Program-made: the position numbers and the translations under genes
Part shown: positions 48,917 to 58,903 of the stretch, in pieces
Layout of the letters: the number at the start of each line of letters is the position of its first letter
Position numbering within the stretch: position 1 is the stretch's first letter
The notes under the pieces: model-generated
The model's database searches: none
What the model saw: the letters and a program-made list of their open reading frames with translations, nothing else
What the model was told of the DNA's origin: nothing
DNA from: Bradyrhizobium sp. WBAH42
Lineage (GTDB): Bacteria; Pseudomonadota; Alphaproteobacteria; Rhizobiales; Xanthobacteraceae
Direction: 5' to 3'
DNA length: 64,000 nt
NCBI RefSeq assembly: GCF_024585265.1
Contig: NZ_CP036533.1
Coordinates: forward strand, 992,001 to 1,056,000

Positions 48917-49756
48917 TTACTCGGACGGCCGGTTGCGCTGGCGGTCACTATACAGCTTCATGATCGCCGCCGCGGTTTCCTCGATGGAGCGGCGCGTGAC
49001 GTCCAGCAGCGGCCAGTCGTGCTTGGCGCTCAGCTTGCGCGCGAACGCGACCTCCTCGGTGACCGACTGCTTGTCGGTGTAGGTATCGCTGCCGGACTCG
49101 GCGCCCATGGAAAGCAGGCGATTCTGACGGATCTGAATCAGGCGTTCCGGCGTCGCGTGCAGGCTGACGACCAGCGGCCGCGTCAGCGTCTCCAATTGCG
49201 AGGGCACGGGGATGCCCGGCACCAGCGGCACGTTGGCGGTGCGGATACCGCGATTGGCCAGATAGATCGAAGTCGGTGTCTTCGAGGTCCGGGACACGCC
49301 GACTAGGACCACATCGGCCTCGTCGAGACCTTCGACGTGCTGACCGTCGTCATGGATCATCGTGTAGTTCAGTGCGTCGATGCGCTTGAAATATTCCGCG
49401 TTGAGCACGTGCTGGGCGCCGACACGGCCGGTGGTCGCAGCGCCCAGATAGGCTTCGAACAGCTGCATCACCGGCCCGATGATCGAGAGGCTCGGAACAT
49501 TGATTTGCTTGCACTTGTCCTCGAGTCTGGCGACCAGATCCTTCTCGAGCAGCGTGAACAGCACGATCCCCGGTGCTTCCTCGATCTCGTCGAGCACGCG
49601 GTCGAGCTGCTTCTGGCTGCGCACCAGCGGATAGACGTGCTCGACCGGCGTCACGTTGGCGTATTGGGCCGCGACCGCGCGCGCCACGGTGATGAGCGTT
49701 TCACCCGTGGAGTCCGAGACCAGGTGGAGATGGAAATAATTGTTCGAGGTCGGCAC
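48917..49756 (-). CDS. Putative PEP synthase regulatory protein (bifunctional kinase/pyrophosphorylase)
   Basis: 279 residues from a GTG at 49756 ([20 protein letters not shown]). DUF299/PPSR family, with P-loop-like [11 protein letters not shown] at 153-163. Family members phosphorylate and dephosphorylate PEP synthase or pyruvate phosphate dikinase with ADP and phosphate. Homologues sit at the edge of the replication origin in Caulobacter and Rickettsia. Here the gene is the left border of a 460-bp non-coding gap. Confidence 0.93.
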
Positions 49757-50216
49757 AAAAACCCTTTGAATTTCGTTGGGGTGGTTTGTGGATTTCTGTG
49801 GAGCTTAACCTCTCGGAAAGGGATGCGCGACACCAGGGGCGGGACAAGCGGCGATTTTCTTCACACTGCTGCCGGTCAGGACAAGTCCGGCGCCCCACCG
49901 AGAGGGAAACGGGATTGCGCGGACAAGTCCCTTGATAAGCTGCCGATACAAACGCGCAAGCCTTTGAAGCCGACTGACTTATCGGAAGTCGACAAAGGCT
50001 GTCCGGAATATGTGGATGGATGTGAACAAGCGCGCGCGAACGCGCGGACGGAATTGCGTGAGTCCAATCCACGGTCACATAGACTCAAACCTTAAGAATC
50101 TAAGATTCTAGATTTGAGGAAGGCGCTACGGACGGATATGTGTGCGGGGTAAGACCTTAACGAGTTCTTACTATCCCCAGCGCTCCCGAGCTGCACAGCA
50201 ACCCGGACCGTCGAAA
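49757..50216. other. Candidate chromosomal replication origin (oriC)
   Basis: 460 bp without a gene, between divergent PPSR and hemJ genes. Seen: four GANTC sites in 49 bp (50060, 50082, 50096, 50104); three TGTGGA cores of DnaA-box type (49787, 49797, 50011); TTAA-CGAGTTC-TTAC at 50157-50171, one base from the CtrA pattern; AGAATC-TAA-GATTCT inverted repeat in an AT-rich stretch at 50084-50118; and two GGACAAGTCC copies at 49879 and 49921. Known: the Caulobacter and Sinorhizobium origins lie beside this same PPSR gene and the hem/rho/mnm/par cluster. Genes to the left run mainly leftward and to the right mainly rightward. No perfect TTATCCACA box is present. Confidence 0.65.
50084..50118. 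repeat. AT-rich interrupted inverted repeat in candidate oriC
   Basis: CTCAAA (50084-50089) pairs with TTTGAG (50113-50118), and inner AGAATC (50095-50100) pairs with GATTCT (50104-50109) around TAA. The inner arms contain two GANTC sites. It is a candidate duplex-unwinding or methylation-sensitive element. Confidence 0.7.
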
Positions 50217-50651
50217 ATGTTCGAAGACGTCTATCTCTGGATCAAGGCGCTGCACGTGATCGCCGTCATCTCCTGGATGGCCGGCATGCTCTATTTGCCG
50301 CGGCTGTTCGTCTATCACTGCGAGGCCGAAATCGGCTCGAAGCAGTCCGAGACGTTCAAGGTCATGGAACGCCGGCTGCTCAAGGCGATCATCAACCCCG
50401 CGATGATGGTCACCTGGCTCGCCGGGCTCTATCTCGCCTGGTCCGGACATTGGTTCTCGTTCGGCTGGCTGCACGTAAAACTGGCACTGGTCCTGGTGCT
50501 ATCGGCGGTCCACGGCTTTTTTTCCCGCTGGGTCAAGGATTTTGCCGCTGATAAGCGTCCACGAAGCCAGAAATTCTATCGGATTATCAATGAGGTGCCG
50601 ACCGTCCTGATGATTTTCATCGTCGTCATGGTGATCGTGAAGCCGTTCTAG
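50217..50651 (+). CDS. hemJ: Protoporphyrinogen oxidase HemJ
   Basis: Penultimate step of heme synthesis, oxidation of protoporphyrinogen IX. 144 residues from the ATG at 50217 (MFEDVYLWIKALHVIAVISW). Four membrane segments. The conserved His in ALHVIAVISWMAGMLYLPRLF and the Lys region near the last helix mark the UPF0093/HemJ family. The ORF opens 25 codons earlier, but that part overlaps the candidate origin. In Sinorhizobium-like neighbourhoods hemE also occurs here; it is absent. Confidence 0.93.
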   Translation: MFEDVYLWIKALHVIAVISWMAGMLYLPRLFVYHCEAEIGSKQSETFKVMERRLLKAIINPAMMVTWLAGLYLAWSGHWFSFGWLHVKLALVLVLSAVHGFFSRWVKDFAADKRPRSQKFYRIINEVPTVLMIFIVVMVIVKPF

Positions 50652-53856: not shown

Positions 53857-53899
53857 CGCTAGTACTTGATTGTAAAACTAGCCCTTGTTCCATTTCTTC

Positions 53900-53915
53900 T
53901 GTTTCACGTGAAACA
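53900..53915. other. parS: parS site 1 (perfect)
   Basis: TGTTTCACGTGAAACA, the full 16-bp ParB-binding palindrome, 44 bp after mnmE and 3.7 kb from the candidate origin. Confidence 0.95.
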
Positions 53916-53932
53916 TGGGCGGGTCCTCGCTT

Positions 53933-53947
53933 TGTTTACTTGAAACG
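53933..53947. other. Degenerate parS-like sequence
   Basis: TGTTTACTTGAAACG reads like a parS site that has lost one base and changed another. It is 18 bp beyond parS site 1. The palindrome is broken, so strong ParB binding is unlikely. Confidence 0.45.
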
Positions 53948-53959
53948 CCGCTCTCTCCC

Positions 53960-54046
53960 CGTCATTGCGAGGAGCCCTTGCGACGAAGCAATCCAGACTG
54001 CCTCCTCCACGAGATCCTGGATTACTTCGCTGCGTTCGCAATGACG
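53960..54046. repeat. Palindromic intergenic repeat, family C copy 2
   Basis: Arms CGTCATTGCGAGGAGCC and TGCGTTCGCAATGACG, with GAAGCAATCCAG / CTGGATTACTTCG inside. It lies between the first and second parS sites in the 459-bp mnmE-mnmG gap. Confidence 0.9.
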
Positions 54047-54153
54047 GAGCATGACGCGGTACGTGGCGCCCCCCGACTAGCAGCTAAAGCGGCGCGGTGA
54101 GGGCATGTGACCGGATGTCTGGTCGAGCATCGCTCGGCCTAGGAGGCCATATT

Positions 54154-54169
54154 TGTTTCACGTGAAACA
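54154..54169. other. parS: parS site 2 (perfect)
   Basis: TGTTTCACGTGAAACA, identical to site 1, in the mnmE-mnmG gap. Confidence 0.95.
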
Positions 54170-54245
54170 CCAGATGGATCAATGCACATCCTACTGTGCA
54201 TGGGCTTGTTTTTCGCGAAAATGGTTCCGACTTGGGGCTTGCGCC

Positions 54246-54261
54246 TGTTTCACGTGAAACG
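54246..54261. other. parS: parS site 3
   Basis: TGTTTCACGTGAAACG, 15 of 16 positions of the consensus, 55 bp before the mnmG start. Confidence 0.92.
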
Positions 54262-54315
54262 CCGCTCCCGAGTTTCCACTTCCGGCTTTCCCAGCTCTGA
54301 GCTAGAAGTCCGTCC

Positions 54316-56211: not shown

Positions 56212-56227
56212 CGTTTCACGTGAAACA
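56212..56227. other. parS: parS site 4
   Basis: CGTTTCACGTGAAACA, 15 of 16 positions, in the mnmG-rsmG gap. A GTG inside it is in frame with rsmG, but I do not take that as the start. Confidence 0.92.
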
Positions 56228-56294: not shown

Positions 56295-56993
56295 ATGGAG
56301 GCGGGACCGGTCAGCCCAACGGCCAGTAAGGCCGTTGCCAACGACAAGGCGCTCGATTCCATCATCGCCGCTGACAAGATCGCTGCCCTCAAGCTGGCTC
56401 CCGTTTCACGTGAAACCGAGGAGCGGCTCGATCGCTACATTGCGCTGCTGCGGGAGTGGCAGGCCAAGACCAATCTGGTCGCGCCCTCGACCTTGCCGCA
56501 GCTCTGGACCCGGCACATCGCCGACTCGCTTCAGCTGATCGATCTCGCGCCGGCCGCAAAGCGCTGGGCCGATCTCGGCAGCGGTGGCGGATTTCCCGGG
56601 GTCGTGCTCGCCTGCGCCATGGCCGGCACACTTGGCGCGAGCGTCCATCTCGTCGAGCGAATCGCCAAGAAGGCCGCCTTTTTGCGCGAAGCGATCCGCG
56701 TCACCACATCTCCGGGAGTCGTACATCTCGCTGAGATCGGGGATAATGTGGATAGAATCACCGGCCCCGTCGATTGCGTCACCGCGCGTGCACTGGCTCC
56801 GCTACATCAACTCATCGGCTTTGCGGAGCCGCTGATGCGCCAGGGCGCAAAGGCGTTATTTCTCAAGGGTCAAGATGTAGAGGCTGAATTGACCGAAGCC
56901 GCTAAATATTGGAATATTCGGCCGCAGCTCCACCAAAGCCGCACGGGCGACGGGTGGATCGTGGAGCTCAATGCCGCCGAACGGCGCGGCTGA
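56295..56993 (+). CDS. rsmG: 16S rRNA (guanine-527-N7)-methyltransferase
   Basis: 232 residues from the ATG at 56295 (MEAGPVSPTASKAVANDK). The frame is open 25 codons upstream to a GTG inside a parS site, so the start is uncertain. Core motifs are ERLDRYIALLREWQAKTNLVA, motif I WADLGSGGGFPGVVLA and VTARALAPLHQLI. Residues 36-41 (VSRETE region) are encoded by a parS site. parA follows after 20 nt. Confidence 0.95.
   Translation: MEAGPVSPTASKAVANDKALDSIIAADKIAALKLAPVSRETEERLDRYIALLREWQAKTNLVAPSTLPQLWTRHIADSLQLIDLAPAAKRWADLGSGGGFPGVVLACAMAGTLGASVHLVERIAKKAAFLREAIRVTTSPGVVHLAEIGDNVDRITGPVDCVTARALAPLHQLIGFAEPLMRQGAKALFLKGQDVEAELTEAAKYWNIRPQLHQSRTGDGWIVELNAAERRG
56402..56417. other. parS: parS site 5, inside the rsmG coding region
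   Basis: CGTTTCACGTGAAACC, with the 14-bp palindromic core GTTTCACGTGAAAC intact and both outer bases differing. It is translated in rsmG as Pro-Val-Ser-Arg-Glu-Thr. Confidence 0.88.
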
Positions 56994-57013
56994 GGGGTGA
57001 GTGGGGAATCGCG

Positions 57014-57880
57014 ATGAGCGTGATTGACGAACCGCAGCAAGAACAGACGGCCCAAAAGTCCGATGAGGTCCCCCATGGCCATCCGCGCATTCTCGCGCTG
57101 GCGAATCAAAAGGGCGGCGTGGGAAAGACAACCACAGCGATCAACCTCGGCACGGCGCTCGCTGCGATCGGCGAGCGCGTCCTGATCGTCGATCTCGATC
57201 CGCAGGGCAACGCCTCGACCGGCCTCGGCATCGATCGCCGCAACCGCTCCTGCTCGACCTATGACGTGCTGATCGGTGAAGCGCCTCTGCGTGAAGCCGT
57301 GGTCTCGACCGCGGTGCCTCGGCTGCACATCGCACCCTCGACCATGGACCTCTCCGGCCTCGAGCTCGAGCTCGGCACCACGCCCGGTCGCGCCTTCAAG
57401 TTGCGCGACGCGATCGGCGCGCTCAACAACAACGTCTCGCCTGACGCCGACTACACCTACGTGCTGATCGACTGCCCCCCCTCGCTCAACCTGCTCACGG
57501 TCAACGCGATGGCGGCGTCGGATGCGATCCTGGTGCCGCTGCAGTGCGAGTTCTTCGCGCTCGAAGGTCTGTCGCAACTCTTGCAGACCGTCGAGCAGGT
57601 GCGCTCGACGCTCAATCCGAACCTGTCGATCCACGGCATCGTGCTGACCATGTTCGACTCGCGCAACAACCTGTCGAACCAGGTCGTCGCCGACGTCCGC
57701 CAGTTCATGGGCGAGAAGGTCTACAAGACCATGATCCCGCGCAACGTGCGCATCTCGGAAGCGCCGTCCTACGGCAAGCCGGTGCTGGTCTATGATCTCA
57801 AATGCGTCGGCAGCGAAGCGTATTTGCGGCTCGCGACCGAAGTGATCCAGCGCGAGCGCGAGCTGCGCACGACGCATTGA
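57014..57880 (+). CDS. parA: Chromosome partitioning ATPase ParA
   Basis: 288 residues from the ATG at 57014 (MSVIDEPQQEQTAQKSDE). Walker A KGGVGKTT at 33-40 with both signature lysines; IVDLDPQGNASTGLG, VLIDCPPSLNLL and VLTMFDSRNNLS follow. It moves ParB-parS complexes, hence the origin, toward the cell pole. Separated from parB by 135 bp that contain a family A palindromic repeat. Confidence 0.98.
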   Translation: MSVIDEPQQEQTAQKSDEVPHGHPRILALANQKGGVGKTTTAINLGTALAAIGERVLIVDLDPQGNASTGLGIDRRNRSCSTYDVLIGEAPLREAVVSTAVPRLHIAPSTMDLSGLELELGTTPGRAFKLRDAIGALNNNVSPDADYTYVLIDCPPSLNLLTVNAMAASDAILVPLQCEFFALEGLSQLLQTVEQVRSTLNPNLSIHGIVLTMFDSRNNLSNQVVADVRQFMGEKVYKTMIPRNVRISEAPSYGKPVLVYDLKCVGSEAYLRLATEVIQRERELRTTH

Positions 57881-57886
57881 CGCTCC

Positions 57887-57968
57887 CGTAGGGTGGGCAA
57901 AGGCGTTTTCCGCGCCCACCGTCCTCCGCACACAATCGGTGGGCACGCTTCGCTTTGCCCACCCTACG
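57887..57968. repeat. Palindromic intergenic repeat, family A copy 3 (between parA and parB)
   Basis: Arms CGTAGGGTGGGCAAAGGCG / GCTTTGCCCACCCTACG. Unlike the other two copies, which lie between convergent genes, this one is inside an apparent operon. It starts 6 nt after the parA stop and ends 47 nt before the parB start. Confidence 0.92.
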
Positions 57969-58015
57969 ATAATTCAGTTCTGGAGTGCTGCACCGTGAAT
58001 CCAAGGGAGCTGGCG

Positions 58016-58903
58016 ATGGCCGATGAAGCGCGTTCGCGACTGGGCCGGGGTCTTGCAAGTCTGATCGGTGACGTCGGCGGCGAGGCCCAGCATGTCGATC
58101 GTCCGCGCGCGCAGCGCAAGGTGCCGATCGAATTCATCAAGGCCAATCCGCGCAACCCGCGCCGCACGTTTTCGGACACCGAGCTGAAGGAGCTCTCCGA
58201 CTCCATCAGGCAGCATGGCGTGATCCAGCCGATCGTGGTGCGGCCCGTGAAGGGCGCGCAGGATCGCTACGAGATCATCGCCGGCGAACGACGCTGGCGC
58301 GCCTCGCAAATGGCCGGCCTGCACGAAGTGCCGATCGTGCCGGTCGACATCAGCGACAGCGACGCGCTGGAATTCGCGATCGTCGAGAACGTCCAGCGCG
58401 AGGACCTCAACCCGATGGAGGAGGCGCAGGGCTATCACGCGCTCGCCAACGAGTTCAAACGCAGCCAGGACGACATTGCCAAGGTCGTCGGCAAGAGCCG
58501 CAGCCACGTCGCCAACATGATGCGGCTGACCAAGCTGCCGGCGGAGGTGCAGGCCTTCATCGCGACCGGCGAGCTGACGGCCGGCCACGCCCGCGCGTTG
58601 ATCGGCGTGCCCGATCCGCTCGCTGCCGCCAAGCGCATCGTCGAGGAAGGTCTCAACGTCCGCCAGGCCGAGGCGCTCGCGCACGAAGAGGGCGTGCCAG
58701 AGCGCAAGCCGCAGAAGGCGCGCGCCAACGGGGGCAAGGAAAAGGACCCCGACACGATCGATCTGGAGAAGCGCGTCAGCGACGCGCTCGGCCTCAAGGT
58801 CACCGTCAACCACCGCGATCCCGGCGGCTCCGTGCAGATCAACTACCGCAACCTCGATCAGCTCGACGAGGTGATGAAGCGGCTGGCCAAGGGCGCGCTG
58901 TAG
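58016..58903 (+). CDS. parB: Chromosome partitioning protein ParB
   Basis: CTP-dependent clamp that loads at parS and spreads. 295 residues from the ATG at 58016 (MADEARSRLGRGLASLIGD), preceded by AAGGGAG. The frame continues into the repeat upstream, which is not ParB-like. N-terminal ParA-interacting helix; GERRWR (90-95) and ENVQREDLNPMEEA of the CTPase/spreading domain; HTH IAKVVGKSRSHVANMMRL; and C-terminal dimerisation domain. The parS sites nearby are its targets. Confidence 0.98.
   Translation: MADEARSRLGRGLASLIGDVGGEAQHVDRPRAQRKVPIEFIKANPRNPRRTFSDTELKELSDSIRQHGVIQPIVVRPVKGAQDRYEIIAGERRWRASQMAGLHEVPIVPVDISDSDALEFAIVENVQREDLNPMEEAQGYHALANEFKRSQDDIAKVVGKSRSHVANMMRLTKLPAEVQAFIATGELTAGHARALIGVPDPLAAAKRIVEEGLNVRQAEALAHEEGVPERKPQKARANGGKEKDPDTIDLEKRVSDALGLKVTVNHRDPGGSVQINYRNLDQLDEVMKRLAKGAL

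Follow-up and report, generated by a model that had tools for sequence, protein, structure and literature searches.

A probable DnaA-dependent chromosomal origin between PPSR and hemJ in Bradyrhizobium sp. WBAH42

The chromosome of Bradyrhizobium sp. WBAH42 is a single contig of 8,285,880 bp, and the window analyzed here, a stretch of 64,000 nucleotides, covers its positions 992001–1056000 (below, five-digit positions are those of the window and larger ones those of the genome). A gap of 460 bp (49757–50216; genome 1,041,757–1,042,216) separates PPSR, which has a GTG start and whose 5' side ends at 49756, from the ATG of hemJ at 50217; the length and coordinates originally claimed for this gap were thus exact. 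A longer hemJ frame is possible from 50142, but in it the HemJ family match starts only at residue 28–31, and the spacing to the 50217-type start differs among relatives in steps that do not preserve a reading frame of three.

48917–49756, minus strand: PPSR (COG1806/DUF299), left flank; PF03618 with 305.6 bits; NF003742
49757–50216, unstranded: candidate oriC, the PPSR–hemJ intergenic gap, 460 bp
50217–50651, plus strand: hemJ, right flank; PF03653, TIGR00701; ATG at 50217

Pfam gene calls placed an exonuclease of the dnaQ type, coaE, maf and PPSR on the minus strand, and hemJ, rho, mnmE, mnmG, rsmG and a ParA-type ATPase were called rightward; with parB, recognized by NCBIfam TIGR00180, these calls confirm the gene list and the switch in orientation that had been described from the sequence. 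The region had also been called otherwise tightly packed, which is wrong, as the mnmE–mnmG gap measures 459 bp and the rho–mnmE gap 322 bp in the ORF list. This correction matters because the mnmE–mnmG gap is a rival origin. The GC content of the PPSR–hemJ gap was 54%, compared with 64% in the sampled genome. An RNA element in the gap was considered and rejected: the window gave no Rfam match at gathering scores, and the folding z scores were –1.62 for 49920–50216 on the plus strand and 0.01 for 49757–50056 on the minus strand.

The sequence-like features of the gap are listed below, together with their conservation in a close set of 83 relatives, which comprised the window, 80 loci and two additional Bradyrhizobium genomes. 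Of the 80 loci, 78 were titled Bradyrhizobium, one Bradyrhizobiaceae and one Frankia. The last of these (JAUEPE010000028.1, 'Frankia sp. RB7') has a Bradyrhizobium-like origin region with 94% PPSR identity, and its title or assembly is presumably wrong.

49787–49795, minus strand: DnaA-box-like site AAATCCACA, two mismatches to TTATCCACA; TGTGGATTT in 74/83
49797–49805, minus strand: DnaA-box-like site AGCTCCACA, three mismatches; TGTGGA core in 82/83
49805–49810, plus strand: TTAACC, CtrA half-site-like; CTTAACC near the PPSR end in 75/83
49857–49865, plus strand: DnaA-box-like site TTCTTCACA, two mismatches; TTCACA core in 83/83
50011–50019, minus strand: DnaA-box-like site CCATCCACA, two mismatches; poorly conserved
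50021–50029, minus strand: DnaA-box-like site TTGTTCACA, two mismatches; ATGTGAACAA in 72/83
50060–50064, unstranded: GANTC (CcrM) site GAGTC; 82/83
50065–50073, plus strand: weak DnaA-box-like site CAATCCACG, three mismatches; between two GANTC sites
50078–50117, unstranded: proposed DNA unwinding element, with the lowest predicted stability of any 40 bp in the gap
50082–50086, unstranded: GANTC site GACTC; 82/83
50096–50100, unstranded: GANTC site GAATC, within the AT-rich stretch; 83/83
50104–50108, unstranded: GANTC site GATTC, within the AT-rich stretch; 67/83
50157–50171, plus strand: CtrA-like site TTAA-N7-TTAC, one base off the consensus

The original prediction had spoken of origin-type motifs with weak DnaA boxes, and both parts of this description proved correct: a cluster of DnaA cores, an AT-rich stretch and GANTC sites are present, and no 9-mer in the gap lies within one mismatch of TTATCCACA. 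There were five matches at two mismatches, compared with 0.44 expected from the genome density, a number reached by 0.05% of 20,783 overlapping 460-bp windows of sampled DNA (maximum, seven). The cores TGTGGA and TGTGAA, counted on both strands, occurred five times in 250 bp of the gap against an expectation of 0.09, which made it the densest such place in 2.44 Mb of sampled DNA (next best, four cores); this core was picked after the gap had been seen, and its independent tests are the relatives described below. With the 7-mer TGTGGAT alone, the gap tied with three other sampled places. A set of five 7- and 8-mers gave 6 occurrences here against 2 elsewhere; it was picked from the gap and thus fitted to it, so we did not count this result. 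The cluster as a whole exceeds chance, and its boxes are individually weak.

Four of the boxes form two doublets with members 10 bp apart, namely 49787 with 49797 and 50011 with 50021. At 50011, the close relatives carry ATGTTGATGG in 50/83 and ATGTGGATGG in 14/83 cases, and TGTTGATGG was found at this position in 50/83. The cores at 49787, 49797, 49857 and 50021 and a block at approximately 50060–50100 were nearly invariant in the 83 relatives, for which the mean identity to the window was 80% in the gap, 91% in the adjoining end of PPSR and 89% in that of hemJ.

We then considered two more distant sets, both made up of best-scoring loci and accordingly biased toward nearer relatives. The family set was drawn from the best 30 of 60 matching genomes among 61, and exclusion of the window and one member of its genus left 28 loci of other genera; the order-level set was drawn from the best 30 of 104 matching genomes among 121, and exclusion of the window and two members of its genus left 27, one of the same family and the others of other families. 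DnaA cores numbered 90 in the family gaps compared with 12.4 in dinucleotide shuffles (7.3-fold), and 72 compared with 12.8 in the order-level gaps (5.6-fold). A reversed-motif control remained at chance in both sets, and a 6-mer search without a preset motif ranked TCCACA/TGTGGA first in both. Of the 27 order-level gaps, 23 had a box within one mismatch, compared with 12 of 28 family gaps and 5 of 83 close relatives, and for this reason the weak DnaA boxes look derived in this lineage.

The neighborhood of these gaps changed on one side only. PPSR was the constant neighbor, and the gene opposite was hemJ in all 83 close relatives. The 28 family loci were evenly divided, 14 having hemJ and 14 hemE, and all 27 order-level loci examined had hemE. 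Because PPSR is constant and the other neighbor changes between hemE and hemJ, the origin stayed with PPSR after the departure of hemE, which in this genome is located at 7.41 Mb (7408323–7409336). Besides Bradyrhizobium, 14 of the 28 family loci of other genera show this departure, which perhaps occurred more than once. Approximately 110 kb from hemE, a second, partial PPSR-like stretch (7517444–7517674; 65% identity, residues 196–270) is possibly a remnant of rearrangement.

We also examined the stretch to the right of the boxes. Only 0.015% of the 40-mers in the sampled genome were as unstable as 50078–50117, and by this predicted instability the stretch would provide an AT-rich unwinding element beside the boxes. 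The four GANTC sites at this element span 49 bp. At least four GANTC sites in 60 bp were found at three places in the genome sample including the gap, the other two being denser; these two clusters lie at 6049620 (six in 60 bp) and 5072910 (five in 60 bp). In this gap alone, the number of GANTC sites was not above shuffles (4 versus 2.2, z 1.3). The family gaps contained 125 versus 57.6 (z 10) and the order-level gaps 85 versus 58.8 (z 3.8), with CGNCG and TTAA scoring equally high in the latter. The genome encodes a RAMA-domain methylase resembling CcrM as well as GcrA-like proteins; for the latter, this one genome gave three near full-length matches (1509644, 5638132 and 6672823) and two partial ones. 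Of the 83 close relatives, 68 had a TTAA-N7-TTAM motif at some position within the gap, and none, this gap included, had the full CtrA consensus TTAA-N7-TTAA. No full IHF consensus was found in the gap, where the best match was a single one with one mismatch at 49936 on the minus strand.

To place the gap on the chromosome, we computed GC skew from 100 evenly spaced 20-kb samples and 20 stretches around the window rather than from every base, with extra sequence from the terminus and the surroundings of hemE; one sampled stretch contained 4,966 masked bases. The expectation that a skew minimum would lie at the gap was only partly borne out. From 788 to 1366 kb (14,294 bases missing), the cumulative skew reached its minimum of –566 at 1,035,404, approximately 6 kb left of the gap, with values of –434 at the gap and –438 at the mnmE–mnmG gap. 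However, the coarse genome-wide curve was lowest at 0.51 Mb, flat up to 1.09 Mb and highest at 5.23 Mb, and the fits pointed elsewhere: boundaries fell at 5.63 and 7.29 Mb in the best two-arc GC fit, and strand-biased oligomers gave a left boundary most often at 1.49 Mb and a right boundary near 5.22 Mb. A minimum beside dnaA, which had been named in advance as evidence against the gap, was looked for and not seen, the value at dnaA being +557 over the same 788–1366 kb. The KOPS-like oligomer GGGCAGGG was 92% plus-strand in the arc from 1.41 to 5.22 Mb, which was chosen by fit, and 7% plus-strand outside it. When GGGCAGGG and GGCGAGGG were pooled, the fitted start was tied between 1.020, 1.035 and 1.178 Mb, and among the matches listed, plus-strand KOPS-like sites were sparse below 1.02 Mb. 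Genome-wide strand asymmetry is thus weak, with a blurred origin side and a sharp terminus side.

On the terminus side, a dif-like site at 5,194,760–5,194,787 matched E. coli dif at 22 of 28 positions, with a divergent right arm, compared with 19 of 28 for the next-best match in sampled DNA; the 28-mer was scored over sampled DNA in which the terminus was favored, and 22/28 is therefore not a whole-genome rank. A search of the whole genome with a dif pattern, allowing up to three mismatches, gave no convincing site. KOPS orientation switches around the dif-like site with few exceptions. Measured from the PPSR–hemJ gap to this site, the replichores are 4,152,788 and 4,133,092 bp long (0.24% imbalance), whereas the imbalance is 0.14% from the mnmE–mnmG gap, 4.06% from dnaA and 46.6% from hemE. 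We accordingly rejected hemE as the true origin neighbor, its surroundings holding eight DnaA cores over 20 kb without a tight cluster. The PPSR–hemJ gap thus lies opposite the dif-like site and terminus, a position that it shares with the mnmE–mnmG gap 4 kb away, and skew, dif and KOPS cannot separate these two gaps.

The region to the right contains the following features, among which the palindrome TGTTTCACGTGAAACA is the ParB-binding parS sequence.

53857–54315, unstranded: mnmE–mnmG gap, rival origin of the Ori-Finder type, 459 bp; no DnaA core, three parS
53900–53915, unstranded: parS TGTTTCACGTGAAACA
54154–54169, unstranded: parS TGTTTCACGTGAAACA
54246–54261, unstranded: parS, one mismatch
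56212–56227, unstranded: parS, one mismatch
56402–56417, unstranded: parS-like, two mismatches; backed by place only, with about nine such sites per genome by chance
56909–57880, plus strand: parA frame with uncertain start codon, ParA-type ATPase; PF13614/PF01656; NCBIfam matches below cut-off
57893–58903, plus strand: parB; TIGR00180 with 199 bits (cut-off 58)

The four parS sites with at most one mismatch occupy 1,045,900–1,048,227, and with the two-mismatch site the cluster lies 4–7 kb right of the PPSR–hemJ gap, which itself contains no parS-like site at up to two mismatches. There were ten two-mismatch sites, one at 1,048,402 and nine scattered singly, and a reversed control also gave nine. 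A parS-like site was found upstream of mnmG in 28 of 30 mnmG loci, the window's own genus included.

These features bear on the strongest competing proposal. In the available text of the study on Ori-Finder, a widely used program for origin prediction, the predicted origins of ten Bradyrhizobiaceae adjoin gidA and a skew switch and contain TGTTTCACGTGAAACA, and the DnaA box of the family is given as TGTTTCACG (PMC2275245). By this rule, the origin would be the mnmE–mnmG (gidA) gap at 53857–54315, TGTTTCACG would be a lineage-specific DnaA box, and the PPSR–hemJ gap, which is not adjacent to mnmG/gidA, would be a mere promoter region. The motif is repeated in one genome paper, as far as its text was available, and the mnmE–mnmG gap fits dif and skew equally well. 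However, TGTTTCACG is half of parS, parA and parB follow closely downstream, and of eight listed papers that contain TGTTTCACG, six appear to concern ParB and parS. We compared the two kinds of gap in other genera; of the 28 loci used for mnmE–mnmG, two gave no mnmE. The 26 mnmE–mnmG gaps held 5 DnaA cores versus 4.6 (z 0.2) and 68 copies of TGTTTCACG versus 0.1, whereas the 28 PPSR gaps gave 90 cores versus 12.2 (z 22.7) and no TGTTTCACG in the same test; the former test is weaker, these gaps being shorter (5,166 versus 11,746 bases in total). The 459-bp mnmE–mnmG gap of this genome is itself without any DnaA core. The rule thus points to gidA because parS was taken for DnaA boxes, and we regard an origin there as very unlikely. 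A narrow literature search found no published notice that the Bradyrhizobiaceae box of Ori-Finder corresponds to parS.

Two further explanations appear even less probable. The gap separates two divergent genes and must therefore hold their promoters, a CtrA-like site lies approximately 45 bp before hemJ, and Caulobacter promoters are affected by GANTC state, according to the part of the report available (PMC3973325); DnaA, CcrM and CtrA could thus act here as transcription factors of PPSR and hemJ rather than as initiation machinery. Such a role, however, predicts neither a position opposite dif nor DnaA clusters that keep to PPSR when hemE on the right gives way to hemJ, and no sigma-70-like promoter was found in the gap, although this is a poor test for alphaproteobacteria. 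A purely promoter function therefore seems highly improbable to us, and dual use as promoter and origin is likely. We give the least credence to an origin beside dnaA (1.22 Mb), where four DnaA cores lie in the 640 bp upstream of the dnaA frame (1,221,122–1,221,757) and where one of the tied KOPS change-points (1.178–1.183 Mb) would fall nearby. The positive skew and the 4% inequality of replichores there speak against it, as does the lack of a parS cluster nearby, and the four cores probably reflect autoregulation.

Taken together, these results argue for the PPSR–hemJ gap as a DnaA-dependent chromosomal origin (oriC), to which we assign a probability of about 0.9, because DnaA cores recur across relatives, the place beside PPSR is conserved, and the gap lies opposite the terminus. 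The candidate put forward in the original prediction is thus supported by the clustering of DnaA cores, their conservation across genera, the AT-rich stretch, the proximity of parS, the dif-like site with its KOPS switch on the opposite side and the COG1806 precedent of Caulobacter and Rickettsia. This support is at the level of sequence and consists of motifs, conservation, local skew, opposition to the dif-like site and parS. That prediction had also suggested that the initiator interaction may differ from the textbook one. GGRDHTTVLHA is the standard motif of DnaA domain IV, and the DnaA of this genome carries it. Weak DnaA boxes are likewise documented for Caulobacter Cori in the available text (PMC4468827), and we therefore dropped the idea of an unusual initiator.

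We infer the following course of initiation. DnaA-ATP would load cooperatively on the weak boxes, among which are two tandem doublets, one close to PPSR and the other in the right-hand half, and individual boxes at 49857 and 50065; most relatives lack the left box of the second doublet. The DnaA filament would extend rightward and open the AT-rich stretch at 50078–50117, where the helicase would load. Two forks would then leave, one via PPSR and the other via hemJ–rho, and meet at about 5.195 Mb, close to the dif-like site, and ParB bound to the parS cluster would segregate the newly copied origins. The timing of these events may be influenced by CcrM, through methylation of the GANTC sites, and by the CtrA-like site beside hemJ. 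Because the conserved GANTC cluster sits in and beside the unwinding element, CcrM methylation could even gate origin melting directly in Bradyrhizobium and its relatives as a once-per-cycle lock, near-consensus boxes fading meanwhile; we regard this idea as speculative and rather doubtful. It would be comparable to GATC/SeqA of E. coli and unlike Caulobacter, for which GANTC sites in the origin have already been reported and loss of ccrM left initiation control undisturbed, as stated in the available part of the report (PMC3973325).

The place of this origin had already been proposed in print; we add its anatomy, the extent to which it is conserved, and an explanation for the disagreement of a software rule. 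The published conflict, in which genome papers favor the gap (PMC3927601, PMC4339197) and Ori-Finder favors gidA (PMC2275245), as far as their available texts go, is thereby addressed on sequence grounds. Origins predicted for the family by the Ori-Finder rule would be misplaced by a few kilobases (approximately 4 kb here) and would carry a wrong DnaA-box consensus. The cell cycle of legume symbionts is of interest in nodules, and candidate DnaA boxes, a proposed unwinding element and a group of GANTC sites are now named for testing in these organisms.

The Ori-Finder oriC of the Bradyrhizobiaceae lies approximately 4 kb from the PPSR–hemJ gap, so that one skew switch would serve both; it rests on a half-parS motif and, unlike the PPSR gap, shows no enrichment of DnaA cores. 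For B. japonicum USDA110 and USDA6, a putative origin was placed from GC skew between bll0636 and blr0637 (PMC3927601), and for Bradyrhizobium sp. DOA9 at the corresponding gene pair, with genes of 846 and 510 bp and 385 bp between them (PMC4339197). PPSR is 840 bp here, the long hemJ frame is 510 bp, and 385 bp lie between them, which matches the DOA9 arrangement in the text available to us; judging from these lengths and spacing, the putative origin of all three strains is very probably the same gap. Those proposals came from GC skew and alignment, and the accessible parts of the reports do not describe boxes, an AT-rich stretch or GANTC sites.

Among known systems, the origins of Caulobacter and Rickettsia lie between hemE and COG1806 in the available text of PMC1914354, which bears out the earlier statement that the Caulobacter origin adjoins this gene set. 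The class is described there by a gap beside hemE or a COG1806 orthologue, and PPSR is COG1806. Cori and the Rickettsia prowazekii origin share with our gap the COG1806/PPSR neighbor, an AT-rich stretch and several DnaA boxes, and Cori resembles it further in its weak boxes and reported GANTC sites, as far as the sources available describe them. The other neighbor of the Cori/Rickettsia type is hemE, whereas here it is hemJ. Cori has five full TTAA-N7-TTAA CtrA sites according to the part of PMC4468827 available, whereas the gap has none, and no full IHF consensus either. Judged by neighbors and motifs, the gap belongs to the COG1806-flanked class of alphaproteobacterial origins rather than to the CtrA-controlled Cori type with its full CtrA sites.
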